The notes under the pieces: generated by a model
Database searches by the model: none
Seen by the model: only the letters and a program-made list of their open reading frames with translations
Told to the model about the DNA's origin: nothing
Shown here: in pieces, positions 2,924 to 11,267 of the stretch
Layout of the letters: every line of letters begins with the position of its first letter
Numbering within the stretch: position 1 is the stretch's first letter
Assembly (NCBI GenBank): GCA_023427285.1
Contig: JAEZBH010000355.1
Coordinates: 1 to 11,343, forward strand
Length of the DNA stretch: 11,343 nt
Direction of reading: 5' to 3'
Source: Pseudomonadota bacterium
GTDB lineage: Bacteria > Pseudomonadota > Alphaproteobacteria > Sphingomonadales > Sphingomonadaceae
Program-made: the position numbers and the translations under genes

Positions 2924-4504
2924 ATGGTCAAGAGCAAGCGGGCAACGCCCCCGGTGTCCGAACCCCTCCAGCCGGGCGATGCAATGCGCGAACGGGTCGC
3001 CGACCTGAAGGCCAGGATCGCCGCCATCGCCGAGGGCGGCCCCGAGGAGGCGCGTGCAAGGCACGTGAGCCAGGGCAAGCTGCTGCCGCGCGAGCGGGTG
3101 GAGCGGCTGCTCGACCCCGCCACGCCGTTTCTCGAACTCTCCCAGCTTGCCGCCTGCGAAGTCTATGACGAGCCCCTTCCGGCAGCGGGCCTCATCACCG
3201 GCATTGGCCGCGTTGCGGGCCGCCTGTGCATGATCGTCTGCAACGATGCGACCGTGAAGGGCGGCATCTATTCTCCGCTCACCGTCAAGAAGCACCTGCG
3301 GGCGCAGGAGATTGCGCGGGAGAACCATCTGCCCTGCATCTATCTGGTGGACTCGGGCAGCACCGACCTGCCCCGTCAGGACGAAATCTTCCCTGATTGC
3401 GATCACTACGGGCGCATCTTCTACAATCAGGCCACCCTGTCGGCGGCGGGCATCCCCCAGATCTCCGTCGTGATGGGAGCCTGCACCGCAAGCGGGGCCT
3501 TTGGTCCTGCCCTGTCGGACGAAACCGTGATCGTGCAGAACCAGAGCACGGTTTTCCTCAGCAACCCGGCACAGGTGAAGGCCGCCAGCGGAGACATTGT
3601 GTCCGCTGAAGATCTGGGCGGGGCCGACGTTCACGCCCGCCGGTCCGGCGTTGCCGACCACCTCGCCCAAAGCGATGCGCACGCGCTTCGCATCACCCGG
3701 AAGATCATGAACACCTTGCCCCCGCCGCGCGTGCCGGACGTCGCTCTTCAGCCCCCAGTGCCGCCCAAATACGCGCCTGAGAGCCTCTATGACATTCTGC
3801 CGGACGATGAGCGCACGCCTCATGACGTGCGCGACGTTATCGCGCGGATCGTTGATGACTCGGCGCTCGATGAATTCAAGCCGCTCTACGGCGCCACGCT
3901 CGTCACCGGCTTTGCCCACCTCTGGGGAATGCCGGTCGGCATCATCGCCAACAACGGCGCGCTGTCCTCCGAGAGCGCGCTCAAGGGCACGCACTTCATC
4001 GAACTGTGCTGCCAGCGTAAAATTCCGCTGCTGTTCCTTCAGAATACCCGCCAGAACACCGGCCAGAACACCGGCCAGAATACTGGCGGCTTCATGATCG
4101 GCCAGCACCATGAGAACGCAGGACTGGCCAAGGACGCCGCCAAGCTCGTTGCCGCTGTTGCCTGCGCTCAGGTGCCCAAGATCACGGTCATCATCGGCGG
4201 CTCGTTCGGCGCAGGCACTTACGGCATGTGCGGGCGGGCCTATTCGCCGCGCTTCCTCTACATGTGGCCCAACGCCCGGATTTCGGCGTTCAGCGGCGCG
4301 CAAGCCGCCGCAGAAGAAGAGGCCTTCAAAACTCCAATCCGGAACCAATATGAACGTCAGGGTCATCCCTATTACGCCAGTGCGCGTTTGTGGGATGATG
4401 GGGTGATTGATCCGGCCGAAACGCGCAACGTCGTCGGCCTGTCACTCGCCGTCGCGCTCAATGCCCCCATTCCGGCAACGCAGTTCGGCGTGTTCCGGAT
4501 GTAA
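2924..4504 (+). CDS. liuB: Methylcrotonyl-CoA carboxylase beta-like carboxyltransferase, altered active-site loops
   Basis: The 526-aa protein is full length for the acyl-CoA carboxyltransferase family. In leucine breakdown this subunit moves CO2 from carboxybiotin to 3-methylcrotonyl-CoA. MCC-beta hallmarks are present: [15 protein letters not shown] (51-65), [89 protein letters not shown] and the C terminus FGVFRM. Three loops are odd. CTAGGAYVPAMSDE is [14 protein letters not shown] (187-200). QNITGFMVG is expanded to [21 protein letters not shown] (373-393). After [12 protein letters not shown] (usually ARISVMGGEQAA, 451-462) about 20 family residues are missing before EEEAFKTPI. It heads the operon liuB-liuC-liuD. 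The start has AAGG 3 nt upstream and gives the family-length N terminus. A geranyl-CoA carboxylase-like role (AtuC) is an alternative. Confidence 0.85.
4040..4087 (+). repeat. Four 12-bp tandem units inside the MCC-beta gene
   Basis: The units are CAGAATACCCGC, CAGAACACCGGC (twice) and CAGAATACTGGC, in frame, encoding [16 protein letters not shown] at residues 373-388. They sit where the family has a single QNITG, so the expansion adds about three units to a conserved active-site loop. The two identical middle units suggest recent slippage. Confidence 0.9.
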
Positions 4505-4625: not shown

Positions 4626-5411
4626 ATGACGGCCCTTCTGTATCAGATCGATGAACGCGGCGTGGCCTACCTCACCCTCGACCGCCCCGATGTTCACAAC
4701 GCCTTCAACGAAGAGCTTATCAGCGAGCTGAGCGACGCCTTCACCGACCTTGCCACCCATGACCGCGTGCGCGTCATTGTGCTACAGGGCAACGGCAACA
4801 GCTTCTCGGCGGGCGCGGACCTTGAGTGGATGCGCCGGATCGCCGCTGCCAGCGAAGCGAAGAACCGCGAGGACGCCCAGCGCCTCTCTGACATGCTGTA
4901 CCTGATCGACAGCTGCCCCAAGCCGGTCATCGCCAAGGTTCACGGCAATGCCTTTGGCGGCGGCGTTGGGCTGATCGCCTGTGCCGATGTGGCGGTGGCG
5001 ATCAGAAGCGTGCGTTTCGCCTTCACCGAAGTGCGGCTGGGGCTCATTCCCGCCGCCATCGCGCCATTCGTCATGAAGGCCATCGGGTCGCGTCATGCCC
5101 GCCGCTTCTTCCTGACCGCCGAGCCCATCGATGCTGCCTGCGCGCAGGAGATCGGCCTCCTGCACAAGCTGGTCGCCGATGAAAGCGACCTGCACGATCA
5201 GGTGGAATATTTTATTGGCCTGCTGCTCGCCAACGCCCCCGGCGCGATGTCGGAGGCCAAGTCGCTGATCCATGATTTTGCAGAGCGCCCGATCACGCCC
5301 GAGCTGCGCTCTGATTCCGCCCGCCGCATCGCTTCCTTGCGCGCCTCTCAAGAGGGGCAGGAAGGCATTGCCGCATTCCTTGAAAAGCGCCGTCCGAACT
5401 GGGTCCATTGA
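4626..5411 (+). CDS. liuC: Methylglutaconyl-CoA hydratase (crotonase family)
   Basis: The 261-aa crotonase-fold enzyme is predicted to hydrate 3-methylglutaconyl-CoA to HMG-CoA in leucine/isovalerate catabolism. The oxyanion-hole segments are FSAGADLEWM (60-69) and NAFGGGVGL (108-116). The catalytic glutamate is Glu135 in FTEVRLGLIPA. The second glutamate of classic enoyl-CoA hydratases (GGGCEL) is Gly115, as is usual for LiuC-type enzymes, so nothing looks broken. The start is ATG 4626 with GGGAGAAG upstream; longer in-frame starts run through the intercistronic hairpins and lack homology. The stop overlaps the next start (TGATG), implying translational coupling to the MCC-alpha-like gene. 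An isohexenylglutaconyl-CoA hydratase (AtuE) is an alternative. Confidence 0.88.
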   Translation: MTALLYQIDERGVAYLTLDRPDVHNAFNEELISELSDAFTDLATHDRVRVIVLQGNGNSFSAGADLEWMRRIAAASEAKNREDAQRLSDMLYLIDSCPKPVIAKVHGNAFGGGVGLIACADVAVAIRSVRFAFTEVRLGLIPAAIAPFVMKAIGSRHARRFFLTAEPIDAACAQEIGLLHKLVADESDLHDQVEYFIGLLLANAPGAMSEAKSLIHDFAERPITPELRSDSARRIASLRASQEGQEGIAAFLEKRRPNWVH

Positions 5412-7195
5412 TGCGTCGAATTTTAATTGCCAACCGCGGCGAAATTGCCCGTCGCATCATTCAGACTGCCCACCGGATGGGGCTCGAAACCGTTGCCGTC
5501 TATTCGGATGCAGACGCTCAAGCCCCGCATGTGGCCGAAGCCACCATGGCCGTCCACATCGGCCCCGCGCCTGCTGCCGAGAGCTATCTTCAGCCCGAGC
5601 GCATCATTGAGGCCGCGCTGAAAACCGGCAGCAACGCCATCCATCCCGGCGATGGTCTCCTGGCCGAAAACGCAGATTTTGCGCAGAAATGCCAGGAGGC
5701 CGGGCTCATTTTCATCGGCCCCGGCGCAGACGCCATCCGCGCCATGAGCCTGAAGGACGGAGCCAAACGCCTCATGCGGCAGGCGGGCCTGCCCATCGTC
5801 CCTGGCTATCAGGGCGACGACCAGAGCCTCGACCGGCTGCAACGCAGCGCCAACGCCCTCGGCTATCCCATTCTCATCAAGCCGGTGGCGGGCAGCGGCG
5901 GCCGGGGGCTGCGCCGCGTCGATAACGCCGACAGCTTCGCCGACGCCCTGATAAACGCCAAGCGCGAGGCCGCCCGCGCCTTCGGCAACGACAGCGTGCT
6001 CATCGAAAAATTCCTGCCCCGTGCGCGCCACATCGAGGTGCAGGTGTTCGCCGATACCCACGGCAACGTCGTTCACCTTTTCGAGCGCGACGGCTCCCTT
6101 CAGTCTCGCCACCGCAAGATGGTAACGGAGGCCCCCGCTCCCGGTCTGCCTGAGAAAACCCGCGCGGCAATCGGCGAGGCCGCCATCCTTGCCGCCAGGG
6201 CCATCGGTTATGCGGGCGCAGGCACGGTTGAATTTATTCTCGACGTTTCAGAGGGCGTAGAAAACGCTCCCTTCTATTTTCTGGAGATGCACACCTGCCT
6301 TGATACGCAGCATCCCGTCACCGAGAGCATCACCGGCCTTGATCTGGTGGAATGGCAGATCCGCGTTGCGCGCGGCGAGACCCTGCCCGCCTCGCAGACC
6401 GACATCCGCCCCAGCGGCCATGCGGTTGCCGTGCGCCTTTGCGCCGAGGACGAGGACGCCGGGTTCAGCCCCTCAACCGGGCAGCTGGAGCGCCTCTGCC
6501 TCCCCTCGGGCCTTCCCGGAGTGCGCGTTGACAGCGATGTTGACGAGGGGGCAGAAATCACCGCTCACGATGACCCCCTGATCGGCAAGATCGCCGCGCA
6601 TGGCGTTGATCGCTCCGTTGCCATCGACCGGCTGATCGTGGCGCTGGATGCCACCATTGCCATCGGCCCCAAAACCAATCGGAATTTTCTTGCCCGGCTC
6701 ATCGGCCATCCGGCCTTCCGCGCCGAGGAGATCGACACCCGCTTCATCGAGCGGCATCTGGATGACCTCGCGCCGATCATCAACGTGCCGGACCGCTTGC
6801 TGGCGCTGGCAGCGCTGGCGGCGGCCACGCCGCGCACACCGCCTAACCTGTCCTCGCCGTGGACCGCGTTGGGGGCCTGGCGGCTCAACCTGCCTTACCG
6901 GCAGAGCATCGATCTCGTCCTGCCCAATGCCGACAGGCGCACCGTCACACTAAATACCCGGCCTGACGGCAGCATCGCCCTTGAAGGACTGGACGAAGCG
7001 CTGGTCGCCCTTCCCCTTTGGCGCGGCGAGCACCGCTTCGAGGTGGATTTCTCCGGCAGCCTTGCCCGCGCCATCGTCCTGCACCACGGCAACAGCCTTG
7101 AGGTGCGCGTCGGCGGCTTCACCTTCCACTTCAGTCTGAATGGCGATGAACACGGCGACGAACAGGCCGCTCGTGCAGCTTGCAGCACATTATAA
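5411..7195 (+). CDS. liuD: Methylcrotonyl-CoA carboxylase alpha-like protein without biotinyl domain and with degraded catalytic motif
   Basis: The 594-aa protein has the biotin carboxylase fold (RRILIANRGEIARRII; ATP-grasp core 110-345) and an MCC-type BT region (about 480-575). It stops where the BCCP domain should begin: no AMKM motif exists here or in any frame nearby, and usual family length is about 650-670 aa. In the core, EMNTRLQVEHPVTE is EMHTCLDTQHPVTE (292-305). This alters the positions equal to E. coli AccC Asn290 (His294), Arg292 (Cys296), Gln294 (Asp298), Val295 (Thr299) and Glu296 (Gln300). HPGYGFL is HPGDGLL (78-84), the glycine loop is AGSGGRG (160-166), and ERDCSLQRRHQK is ERDGSLQSRHRK. 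Lys115, Lys157, Glu274, Glu292 and Arg342 remain. Bicarbonate activation is unlikely; ATP binding may survive. I chose ATG 5411 over TTG 5408 because of the TGATG overlap. Function is unknown; structural partner or pseudoenzyme is plausible. Confidence 0.85.
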   Translation: MRRILIANRGEIARRIIQTAHRMGLETVAVYSDADAQAPHVAEATMAVHIGPAPAAESYLQPERIIEAALKTGSNAIHPGDGLLAENADFAQKCQEAGLIFIGPGADAIRAMSLKDGAKRLMRQAGLPIVPGYQGDDQSLDRLQRSANALGYPILIKPVAGSGGRGLRRVDNADSFADALINAKREAARAFGNDSVLIEKFLPRARHIEVQVFADTHGNVVHLFERDGSLQSRHRKMVTEAPAPGLPEKTRAAIGEAAILAARAIGYAGAGTVEFILDVSEGVENAPFYFLEMHTCLDTQHPVTESITGLDLVEWQIRVARGETLPASQTDIRPSGHAVAVRLCAEDEDAGFSPSTGQLERLCLPSGLPGVRVDSDVDEGAEITAHDDPLIGKIAAHGVDRSVAIDRLIVALDATIAIGPKTNRNFLARLIGHPAFRAEEIDTRFIERHLDDLAPIINVPDRLLALAALAAATPRTPPNLSSPWTALGAWRLNLPYRQSIDLVLPNADRRTVTLNTRPDGSIALEGLDEALVALPLWRGEHRFEVDFSGSLARAIVLHHGNSLEVRVGGFTFHFSLNGDEHGDEQAARAACSTL

Positions 7196-7199
7196 AAGC

Positions 7200-7228
7200 A
7201 ATGAGGCCGGGGATGACCCGGCCTCATT
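7200..7228. terminator. Shared convergent terminator
   Basis: A perfect 12-bp stem, AATGAGGCCGGG / CCCGGCCTCATT, with a GATGA loop begins 4 nt after the liuD stop and lies 15 nt beyond the stop of the converging gene. On the minus strand it is followed by GCTTTT, so it best serves the DUF1269 gene; it probably blocks rightward transcription too. Confidence 0.85.
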
Positions 7229-7243
7229 CTGCTGCCTGCACCA

Positions 7244-7801
7244 TCAGGACTTGGCGGCGTCCGACTTGTCGGCGTCCGACTGGTCGCCTTTGACATGGGG
7301 TGCCAGCGCTTTTCTCAGGCGCTCCTCCTGTTCCGGAGACAGCGAGGTGCGCAACACCCGGCCATGATACTTGGAGAGATCCTCCAGCACCTTTTCCGCC
7401 TGAACCTTGCGTATCAGAATGAACAGCGCAGAACTTCCCGGAGGTATGGTCTTTGTCAGCGAACGGATAAAATTGTCATCGATGCCGTAATCGGTCAGGG
7501 CGCCCGCCAGCGCTCCCGCACCAGCGCCAATAATGCCTCCCAGCGCCAGCCCCGCCAGCGGGTTGAGAAACAGCAAGCCCACCAGCGTCCCCCAAAACAG
7601 GCCGGACAGGCCGCCGCTGGTTGCGCCGATGCCAACCGTTCCAACGCTTTGCTTGAGCCGCACCTTGCCGTCATCCGTGCGCACGGCCACAACCGCGTCA
7701 TTCAGGTCAATAAGATATTCCTTCTGAAGTCGGTGCAGCTCGGTCAGAACCCGGTCTGCCTCTTCTTGCGTGTCAAATCCAATAACCACCAGTTCAGACA
7801 T
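7244..7801 (-). CDS. DUF1269-family membrane protein
   Basis: The 185-aa protein has no known biochemical role. It begins MSELVVIGFDTQEEADRVL, typical of DUF1269: a ferredoxin-like N-terminal half (1-50) that recurs after the membrane part (SALFILIRKVQAEKVLEDL, 124-142). Residues 53-103 form a glycine-rich hydrophobic hairpin with GxxxG-like spacing (GGLSGLFWGTLVGLLFLNPLAGLALGG region), probably two helices. The tail is hydrophilic and repetitive (DQSDA-DKSDA, 174-183). ATG 7801 has GGAGAGG upstream; an in-frame start at 7858 would only add leader sequence. It appears monocistronic, ending at a strong hairpin. The 284 bp upstream (7802-8085) contain no gene or strong element that I can recognise. 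Confidence 0.85.
   Translation of the reverse strand: MSELVVIGFDTQEEADRVLTELHRLQKEYLIDLNDAVVAVRTDDGKVRLKQSVGTVGIGATSGGLSGLFWGTLVGLLFLNPLAGLALGGIIGAGAGALAGALTDYGIDDNFIRSLTKTIPPGSSALFILIRKVQAEKVLEDLSKYHGRVLRTSLSPEQEERLRKALAPHVKGDQSDADKSDAAKS
7256..7285 (-). repeat. 15-bp tandem duplication in the DUF1269 gene tail
   Basis: On the plus strand GGCGTCCGACTTGTC is followed by GGCGTCCGACTGGTC (14 of 15 identical). Read on the minus strand the units encode D-Q-S-D-A and D-K-S-D-A, extending the acidic C-terminal tail without changing the frame. Confidence 0.8.
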
Positions 7802-8085
7802 ATCGCGCACCTCTCCGTCGAGTTTTCGATCTGGGCTTGTCGCAGAACAACACGTCAACGATTATCAGTGCCATCGGGTTCATTCTTACGGCTCGCAGCG
7901 CAATTGAGATGCTGCGGGAGCGCAACAAGCCGCACGGTTGATCTGAGGAAAAACCGGAAACTGGCACTTTCGAAACTGGAACGCGCTATGGCGCTGGCGT
8001 CAGACCGCCTGCTTTTTTTCAGACGACACCACAGACAAGCCGCAGCGCCGCCGCCTGCGCCCATGGATAAGGTGCGCCCCGGTCT

Positions 8086-9957
8086 TTACCCGGCCAGCCG
8101 CTCCGTCTGTGCGGCATCGCCGGCATAACTGCCGTCTATGGCGATGAAATCGAGCGCAAATTCTCCCGGCGATAATTCGCGCCGCAGGTAGCCGTCCTGC
8201 TCCGGGGCCAGCCCCAATTTCGTCAGCACCGCCTGCGCCGCGCCGTTACGCTCCGTTCGCCGGAAATTGATTTCGACAAATCTTGCCTGCCAATCCGGCC
8301 GGGTCGTTAAATGGTGCAGCAGCGCCTGCTCGATAAATTTTCCCTGTACCCGGCAGGACAGCATGAAATCCTCGATGCGGATGCCATCCTCTGCGCGGCG
8401 TGCCAGACAAAAGCCGACGATGCCGTAGCTGCCGTAGCGATCCGCGCATTTTATCACGTATCGCTCCCGGCCCTGATCGGCGAGCAGCGCCAGAACTTCC
8501 TCCCGGCCATATTTCCGGCCAGAAAAATTCAGCTGGTTCGTGCGCTGCACCAACTCGCACACCCGCTCCAGATCCTCCGGCCGGTCGGGGCGGATTTCGA
8601 CCTCAATTTCACACGCGCGCAGGAACTCAATGTAATTCTCGCCAAACGCCGCCGCCGCCACTTCCCGCTCCATCGCCTGCCGGTAGAGCGAGCGGCGCAT
8701 TTTTGACTCCGCAGTTACGGCCCCTTGCAGGCGCGGGTGCTCAAGCAGCCTTGGCAGCATGGTGTCCGGCAGAACCTCAACGTCCGGCACGCTGCGCGCC
8801 ACCTCATCGCGCTCGAACGGGTTGTCATCAATGAACATCAGGGAGTCGATGCCGATATTCAGGTTCCTGGCAATTTCGCGCAGTCCTTCCGACTTCGGCC
8901 CCCAGCCGATGCTCGGAAACAGCACATATTCCTCGAGGCCGAAGGCGCGCAGCTTCTCCAGCGCGTCTTCCGGCGCGTTCTTGCTGGCAACGGAAATCAG
9001 GATGCCCCGCTCATCAAGGCGGCGGAACACCTCTGCAATGCCGTCGCGCAAGCGCACACTACCCTCGAGCAACACGCCGTCCCACAAAGTATTGTCCAGA
9101 TCGAACACCACGCATTTGGCAGCAGGTACCTTGCGATTGTGCGCGATCATCTCTTCTTGTGCGCCAGAGGCGGCCTTGCGCCCGTATTCGACAAAATCCA
9201 GCGTCAGAAAAACAAGGTGCGCGTCCTCAACGCCCAGCGGCGTCAGCGCAATGCCAAACGGCAAGCCGGAGCCGATCAGCGTCTGGAATTCAGCGCGAGG
9301 AATATCCTGCCGGAAGTAGCCCGGCGCAATTTCCAGCTTGCGCAGAACAGGCGCGGGCAACTGGTCGGCCCGCACCGTCCGGCCAATGCGCGAGCGATCG
9401 ATGAACACCGACAGTTGCAGCGTCACCGGCCGATCCATCGGGTTATACACCTCCATCACGAAGGCGTCCGGCACCACCTGCCCGGCGGCGCGCTTGTGCA
9501 GCAGACCGTTCAGCCGCTCCATCAGTGCAAAGCTGGCGTAAGCCCAGCGAATATCGCCCGTCGCCTTATGGCCAAGCCGTCCCGCCCAATTCACAACCGG
9601 GGCCAGCGCTTCCGCCAGACCTTCCAGCAGCCGCACCTGCCCGCCCGGCAGCAGCGCCGCGTTGCCCCGCGCCTCGATCTTGCCCCAGCGGCGAAATCGC
9701 ACCTCTGCGCCATAGCCAGCCGCAGACGGAAAATTCCGGTTTTTGTACATGCCGAATTCAAACCGGCGGCAGCGCATGTCAGGCCGGGCCTGATACAGGT
9801 CGCAGGTCGCAAAACAGTCCGGCGCGGCGCATTCAATGCAGTGCTCGCCCCACAGCAGAAACGCCCGCTTCTGTCCGCCTTCAAACGGCGCATAGGCCGC
9901 AACCGGACGTGCGGGCGCAGTCTGCCGGGATTTTTCGTACTTATCGAATTCAAACAT
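8086..9957 (-). CDS. FkbH-type HAD-IIIC phosphatase/GNAT protein with cysteine-rich N terminus
   Basis: The 623-aa cytoplasmic protein has the FkbH layout. HAD motifs are VVFDLDNTLWDG (Asp286, Asp288), SVASKN (322-327), WGPKSEGL (Lys355) and MFIDDNPFERDEV (Asp377, Asp378); a GNAT-like acyltransferase part follows (about 450-590, with QRTNQLNFSGRKY). FkbH proteins commonly make glyceryl-ACP or modify sugars in polyketide and polysaccharide clusters. Here no ACP, PKS or glycosyltransferase is adjacent, so the substrate is unknown. The added N terminus has five clustered cysteines, C40-x2-C43-x4-C48-x3-C52-x10-C63, with His39, suggesting a zinc or Fe-S site. A beta-rich region (about 160-260, FVMEVYNPMDRPVTLQLSVF) follows, resembling a jelly-roll module. 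The start ATG 9957 has CAGGA upstream. All HAD catalytic residues are intact. Confidence 0.88.
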   Translation of the reverse strand: MFEFDKYEKSRQTAPARPVAAYAPFEGGQKRAFLLWGEHCIECAAPDCFATCDLYQARPDMRCRRFEFGMYKNRNFPSAAGYGAEVRFRRWGKIEARGNAALLPGGQVRLLEGLAEALAPVVNWAGRLGHKATGDIRWAYASFALMERLNGLLHKRAAGQVVPDAFVMEVYNPMDRPVTLQLSVFIDRSRIGRTVRADQLPAPVLRKLEIAPGYFRQDIPRAEFQTLIGSGLPFGIALTPLGVEDAHLVFLTLDFVEYGRKAASGAQEEMIAHNRKVPAAKCVVFDLDNTLWDGVLLEGSVRLRDGIAEVFRRLDERGILISVASKNAPEDALEKLRAFGLEEYVLFPSIGWGPKSEGLREIARNLNIGIDSLMFIDDNPFERDEVARSVPDVEVLPDTMLPRLLEHPRLQGAVTAESKMRRSLYRQAMEREVAAAAFGENYIEFLRACEIEVEIRPDRPEDLERVCELVQRTNQLNFSGRKYGREEVLALLADQGRERYVIKCADRYGSYGIVGFCLARRAEDGIRIEDFMLSCRVQGKFIEQALLHHLTTRPDWQARFVEINFRRTERNGAAQAVLTKLGLAPEQDGYLRRELSPGEFALDFIAIDGSYAGDAAQTERLAG

Positions 9958-10244: not shown

Positions 10245-11267
10245 TCAGAACTCGAACAGCCCCAATGCGCCACGCACCTCCTCAAGCGTTGCTTGGGTGC
10301 GCCTGCGTGCTGCCTCGGTACCCTGCCGCAGCACCTCCAGCACATAGCCGGGATCTTTCGCCAGCGCCGCCCGCCGCTCGCGGATCGGGGCGAGAAACGC
10401 TTGCAAAATCTCTTCCAGCCGCCGCTTTAACAACATGTCGCCCAGCCCGCCGCGGCGATACTGCTCTTTCAGCGCCGCAACCGCTGCCTGATCCGGATCG
10501 AACGCATCAAGGTAAGCGAACACCACATGACCTTCGACCGTTCCGGGATCGCTTGCCCGCAGGTGGTTGGGGTCAGTGTACATCATTTGAACCGCGCGGC
10601 TGATCTCATCGGCTGAAGCGGACAGCACCAGGGCGTTTCCTTGGCTCTTGCTCATTTTTGCCTTGCCATCCACGCCCGGCAGGCGGCCCATCTGCGGAAT
10701 AAGCGCTTTGCATTCCGGCAGCACGTCCCGCCCGGCCTGCCGGTTGATGCGCCGGACGATCTCGTTGCTCTGCTCGATCATCGGGGCCTGATCCTCGCCC
10801 ACCGGCACCAGCGTTGCCCGAAAGGCGGTAATGTCCGCCGCTTGCGCCACCGGGTAGCACAGGAACCCGGCGGGAATATCCCGCTCGAACCCGCGCTGGC
10901 GGATTTCGTCCTTCACCGTCGGATTGCGCTCCAGCCGCGCCACCGTCACGAAGTTCAGGTAGAGCATTGTCAATTCGGCCAGTGCCGGCAGCAGGGACTG
11001 CACGCAAATGAATGATTTCTGCGGATCGATCCCCACCGCCAGATAATCCAGCGCCACTTCCAGAACGTTGCGCTGCACCTTTTGCGTGTCGTGTGCATTA
11101 TCGGTCAGCGCTTGCGCGTCTGCCAGCAGCAGAAACTGCTCGCAGCTCTCCTGAAGCAGCACGCGATTTTTAAGAGAACCCGCAAAATGCCCGAGATGCA
11201 GCGGGCCTGTCGTGCGATCGCCGGTCAGGATGACCGGGCGGCTTTGGGATGAATTTTCTGCCAGCAT
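10245..11267 (-). CDS. trpS: Tryptophanyl-tRNA synthetase, TrpRS II (accessory) type
   Basis: The 340-aa class I synthetase is predicted to charge tRNA-Trp. The HIGH motif is HLGH (24-27) in [20 protein letters not shown]. The Trp-pocket segment is YPVAQAADI (138-146, Asp145) and PVGEDQ follows. The second signature is KMSKS (204-208). The opening LTGDRxTGxLHLGHxxGSLxNR and LASDPG/RASDPG-type segments ([13 protein letters not shown]) differ from the housekeeping SGIQPTGxLHLGNYLG form and match the divergent group that includes the Deinococcus TrpRS II. All catalytic motifs are intact. ATG 11267 has AGGAG 8 nt upstream. The gene looks monocistronic. Whether a housekeeping TrpS exists elsewhere in this genome cannot be seen; if so, this copy may be conditional or give resistance to Trp-analogue inhibitors. 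No nitric oxide synthase gene is nearby. Confidence 0.9.

Follow-up and report, generated by a model that had tools for sequence, protein, structure and literature searches.

A methylcrotonyl-CoA carboxylase-like gene pair with no biotinyl domain and with replaced active-site residues in a Pedomonas-like sphingomonad: a possible pseudo-carboxylase

Here, we describe an altered methylcrotonyl-CoA carboxylase (MCC) locus in an 11,343-nucleotide stretch of sphingomonad DNA (the window; features in Table 1), where a Pedomonas-like sphingomonad appears to have stopped making a biotin-dependent methylcrotonyl-CoA carboxylase. The biotinyl domain, the bicarbonate site of the alpha subunit (LiuD) and the acyl pocket of the beta subunit (LiuB) are lost or replaced, and alpha and beta would persist as a pseudo-carboxylase, either as a scaffold or with alpha serving the beta ring as a partner that binds ATP, presumably co-expressed with a functional LiuC hydratase. 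That the two are a folded, scaffold-conserved pseudo-MCC pair, selected for a role other than carboxylation, is a reading that could as easily prove wrong as right; that a non-carboxylase pair of some kind is maintained, with or without new chemistry, is moderately probable. If so, this is a two-subunit carboxylase that has shed its cofactor carrier and active sites with scaffold and operon surviving, and it lets one ask what the MCC scaffold does without biotin. Annotation by domain only could wrongly credit the organism with leucine degradation through MCC. In open-licence PMC literature, none of the 12 titles listed out of 405 matches concerned such an altered MCC pair, and a further match was a paper on a tubulin ligase-like protein.

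Table 1. Features of the altered liu locus, in window coordinates.
Feature	Position	Strand	Basis
liuB-like, MCC beta (carboxyltransferase) subunit with altered pocket and active-site loops	2924..4504	+	Pfam, alignment, model
12-nt tandem repeat coding a 16-residue stretch just before GFMIG	4040..4087	+	repeat analysis
liuC-like, crotonase-family hydratase (probably methylglutaconyl-CoA)	4626..5411	+	TGATG overlap with liuD, conservation
liuD-like, MCC alpha without biotinyl domain, bicarbonate site replaced	5411..7195	+	ORF, Pfam, motif comparison
perfect 12-bp hairpin, beginning 4 nt past the stop codon of liuD	7200..7228	.	T-run on minus strand only

The liuD frame is open for 594 codons, as a sequence-only reading of this DNA had stated, with an alternative in-frame TTG start at 5408, and its coupling to liuC through a TGATG overlap at 5409-5413 is likewise borne out. 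Pfam finds Biotin_carb_N, CPSase_L_D2 (ATP-grasp), Biotin_carb_C and BT_MCC_alpha (PF21139, 6.7e-9) in the product and no biotinyl domain, in agreement with the same reading's description of family similarity up to the BT region and an absent BCCP; the AMKM-bearing BCCP expected of an MCC is missing. The BT domain, which joins alpha to beta, is present by this PF21139 match, and its barrel is modelled with high confidence. This order of biotin carboxylase N-terminal, ATP-grasp, biotin carboxylase C-terminal and BT domains is shared with MCC alpha (LiuD/MccA; P. aeruginosa 3u9s, human MCC), as is the operon order liuB-liuC-liuD, and among proteins of known structure P. aeruginosa MCC alpha is the best match. 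The window LiuD, 77% identical to the ortholog of a probable P. mirosovicensis genome, differs from MCC alpha in the absent biotinyl domain, the changed bicarbonate site and several changed motif blocks. Separate biotin carboxylases (AccC, with no fused BCCP) share with it the ATP-grasp fold on a chain without a biotinyl domain; AccC, for its part, lacks a BT domain and retains the residues of the bicarbonate site. Against the NCBIfam accC model LiuD scores 492.9, under the cut-off of 626.5, but this does not separate it from the intact ortholog, whose score (580.0) is also below. A search for an out-of-frame biotinyl relic after the liuD stop gave no more than a vague LVQL-like stretch, and the idea was dropped.

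Three motif blocks of LiuD read, as first reported, EMHTCLDTQHPVTE, HPGDGLLAEN and ERDGSLQSRHRK, against EMNTRLQVEH, HPGYGFLSEN and ERDCSLQRRHQK in close relatives, the bicarbonate-site motif EMNTRLQVEH being EMHTCLDTQH here. With E. coli biotin carboxylase as the reference on which positions were placed by motif, the replacements are R296C, Q298D, V299T, E300Q, N294H and Y81D in window numbering (E. coli R292, Q294, V295 and E296 to C, D, T and Q, N290 to H, and Y82 to D); four of five bicarbonate-site positions are changed. The ATP and metal positions K115, K157, E199, H207, Q231, H234, E274 and E292 (E. coli K116, K159, E201, H209, Q233, H236, E276 and E288) remain unchanged, and so do E. 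coli K238, R338 and D382; the MgATP ligands of an MCC are all present at E199, Q231, E274 and E292, as placed by motif. At site positions other than the equivalents of E201, Q233, E276, E288, E296, R338 and D382, the roles are those we take the residues to have. For these equivalents the roles follow passages of PMC11077971, mostly in Chloroflexus numbering. The proposal that metal, bicarbonate and catalytic-base residues had all been dismantled stands for the bicarbonate site and the base, which are gone, but not for the metal, where both glutamates remain and only the neighbouring N290 equivalent is His. As read from the sequences, alpha likely still binds ATP, but the pair would no longer activate bicarbonate, carboxylate biotin or transfer the carboxyl group, and it is predicted to be unable to act as a standard biotin-dependent carboxylase.

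The changes extend beyond alpha, which the sequence-only reading did not see: beta is altered as heavily (23/212 invariant columns, against 24/148 in alpha). LiuB shares with MCC beta (LiuB/MccB) a Carboxyl_trans domain over nearly its full length, with about 80% aligned identity to its closest relatives, and differs in A147T, F162Y and G190S, in an insertion and in a deletion. The replaced residues are A148, F163 and G191 of the acyl pocket and oxyanion site in the passages used from PMC5991677; that paper's F380 and G421, by motif F390 and G431 in LiuB, are kept, so three of these five pocket and oxyanion residues are replaced. The 12-residue insertion, built of 12-nt repeats, lies directly before GFMIG (GFMVG in relatives) and is followed at once by F390, and the 20-residue deletion removes the loop after QAA (VLATIRRDN...). 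QNI[TS]GFMVG is kept in 119/120 relatives listed. Short tandem repeats, 12 and 15 nt, also lie within coding regions at 4040-4087, 7142-7164 and 7248-7286, two of them in altered liu genes.

The LiuD protein search (best 120 of 7998 scored) returned, as P0001, the same protein with a difference at one position (593/594); it lies on an ENA contig of 19,059 bases and belongs to a cluster of three. Of the other 119 relatives, 118 keep EMNTRLQVE[HP] and 116 have AMKM; the exceptions among those listed are P0115 (still ARLQVEH), P0085 (EAMKV) and the short P0009 and P0075 (523 and 591 aa). The seven matches listed next after P0001 share 76-80% identity with LiuD, have 663-665 residues and all bear the biotinyl domain; P0003 goes under the name Pedomonas sp. 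No close relative came out of 396, 327 and 385 genomes searched, whereas 298 genomes of the family yielded two, which are used here: G803, the probable P. mirosovicensis genome, and G804. Canonical, BCCP-bearing homologues, which had been named as a sign of error, are therefore nearly universal among the relatives listed (118 and 116 of 119 for the two motifs) and include both fetched orthologs, as a sequencing or assembly artefact in the window would predict. Such an artefact is nonetheless very improbable, because second database sequences of alpha and of LiuC (260/261) differ by one residue each, even if they may stem from the same sample, and because the substitutions are many, spaced and none a frameshift. 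The LiuB search returned no near-identical beta, unlike those for alpha and LiuC, so sister strains may carry a broken beta.

The window's gene order is phaZ, cobS, liuB, liuC, liuD, hairpin and DUF1269 gene, and that of the G803 locus (L126) is phaZ, cobS, LysR-like, liuB, liuC, liuD and acyl-CoA dehydrogenase-like, the LysR-like and dehydrogenase labels being NCBIfam matches under cut-off. The dehydrogenase of L126 is probably an isovaleryl-CoA dehydrogenase. With the L126 proteins as queries, a dehydrogenase adjoins liuD in 8/9 other loci (L127, with an 89% match, L001, L002, L006, L008, L056, L083 and L088, where L006 and L083 are the same place counted separately) and was not found beside liuD in L005; the LysR-like protein was found in 4/9 (L127, L001, L002 and L056), some loci being too short to reveal it. 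Neither was found in the window by the same queries. Both closest fetched loci (G803 and G804) have canonical liuB and liuD motifs and both genes, so the window lineage most likely lost the two, for which one deletion from inside liuD through the dehydrogenase would be the simplest account. Since the relatives' loci are canonical and hold two genes absent here, the window locus is, by gene content and order, the orthologous leucine operon liuB-liuC-liuD in reduced form, and the missing dehydrogenase and LysR-like genes indicate that the leucine route has been lost here. A paralogue beside an intact copy is unlikely for this locus, as its phaZ, cobS, liuB, liuC, liuD order matches that of the intact ortholog. 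Vitamin B12 uptake-like genes (by eye, from ORF starts) lie upstream of liuB in L002 and L005, as does cobS in the window, and in L126 the cobS match at 15722-16482 is in two pieces offset by 2 bases, so that cobS is possibly frameshifted there.

The gene losses suit simple decay, in which a deletion took the dehydrogenase together with the biotinyl domain, the pathway was lost, and both liuB and liuD are left to drift, their frames open by chance or because liuC needs to be translated; liuB, upstream of liuC, could stay open through polarity alone. The in-frame repeat expansion and deletion in beta and the missing near-identical beta fit this as well, and we consider decay possible but rather doubtful. 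Pairwise dN/dS to G803 (NG86) is 0.26 for liuD, 0.17 for liuB, 0.16 for liuC, 0.21 for phaZ and 0.13 for trpS. Window-branch omega in a three-taxon codon model is 0.16 for liuD, 0.07 for liuB and 0.07 for liuC, values that are rough because of the long branch times fitted (2-12 neutral changes per codon) and that, as averages, would mask a short late neutral phase. Neither liuD figure is near 1, the value earlier named as the mark of decay; its branch omega is above that of G803 (p 0.003) and below 1 (p 1e-7), and that of liuB does not differ from that of G803 (p 0.5) and is below 1 (p 2e-9). Third-position changes in liuB, liuC and liuD are 1.5 times those of G803, so the window branch is longer overall. 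The marks of a pseudogene are absent, with no stop in the 1120 codons of liuB and liuD, no frameshifts and a branch-average dN/dS below 1, which argues against decay; in a neutral simulation (substitutions only) run to the observed loss of invariant columns, the probability of no stop was 0.05-0.08 for alpha and 0.10-0.16 for beta. GC3 of the altered genes (0.77-0.80, inside the neighbours' 0.67-0.85) also speaks against it.

Invariant columns were defined in an outgroup of 110 alpha and 114 beta sequences, and none is changed in the nine alpha (0/158 each) and six beta sequences of close relatives compared; in PhaZ, 3/101 columns invariant in 22 homologues differ (against their consensus). 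The changed invariant columns cluster along both chains, with 22 pairs no more than 5 residues apart in alpha, where 8.0 are expected (p 0.0003), and 29 pairs no more than 10 apart in beta, where 11.7 are expected (p 0.0003), and in alpha invariant columns are hit more than moderately conserved ones (24/148 vs 13/194, p 0.008), both of which decay would not lead one to expect; in beta, changes are spread evenly over the conservation classes (p 0.13), as decay would have it. Because the first motif segments had been drawn after the changes were seen, positions were retested as near or far, near meaning no further than 8 residues from an active-site residue; these residues were taken from the passages used from two papers, apart from one alpha position, and two beta positions were placed by hand. 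On this division the window lineage has amino acid changes at 27/115 near and 48/478 far positions of liuD (p 0.0003; ortholog 1/115 and 12/478) and at 25/134 and 36/367 of liuB (p 0.013; ortholog 3/134 and 19/367), the opposite of the trend in intact G803. The retest weakens the liuB contrast and leaves its direction the same (p 0.02 at 5 residues, 0.013 at 8 and 0.047 at 12; near vs far omega, p 0.078). By the same named residues, liuB omega at far sites is not different from background (p 0.53), against decay, and that of liuD is above it (p 0.033). Together with raised positions 1+2 outside the post hoc motif segments (p 0.036) and similar tip lengths per domain (0.17, 0.26, 0.29 and 0.26), the latter shows that LiuD is relaxed throughout, as under decay; these tip lengths also leave protection of the BT domain unsupported.

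The alpha model has a mean pLDDT of 87, is confident as far as residue 578, includes a formed BT barrel, and has human MCC as its top Foldseek match; alignments for both models included intact relatives, which helps alpha's confidence. The beta model has a mean pLDDT of 74, low at loops 146-152, 189-191, 210-224, 377-397, 429-433, 455-464 and 485-490, the active-site loops among them, and at both ends. A neofunctionalised biotin-free pair, converted in place without duplication, would use alpha's MgATP to activate another acid or acceptor in its remodelled pocket and the crotonase-fold beta to handle an acyl-CoA without carboxybiotin, with LiuC hydrating the product. The eight kept ATP and Mg positions beside four of five changed bicarbonate-site positions (roles partly from the passages used from PMC11077971, partly general background) and the conservation of LiuC, where 0/76 columns conserved at >=90% are changed, are consistent with this. 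It is unlikely, given a single species-level lineage, beta loops of low model confidence with a repeat insertion and a deletion, and no positive evidence for a new substrate. The original suggestion of a stable pseudoenzyme or new chemistry is thus favoured over error and simple decay by the second sequence, the clustering, omega below 1 and the lack of stops, with nothing positive for its second half.

A perfect terminator after the liuD stop, followed by an opposing gene, had also been proposed. The hairpin (-27.9 kcal/mol, z -5.2 over 7190-7245) and the opposing gene (a DUF1269 protein, 7244-7858 minus) are there, but the T-run that makes a terminator lies on the minus strand, so the hairpin suits the DUF1269 gene. 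Descent from the terminator after the relative's dehydrogenase was considered, the 9-bp stems being the same, and is not claimed because 200 shuffles reached an alignment score of up to 32 (mean 18.7), above the 25 observed. Near the liu operon, 8086-9957 minus encodes an FkbH-domain HAD protein of 623 aa with no match in the relative's 19.9-kb stretch. The TrpRS at 10245-11267 minus, used as a control, gave no hits at E 1e-40 across 25 sphingomonad genomes; it is of an unusual type for the order, and the probable P. mirosovicensis genome has a TrpRS with 82% identity to it.
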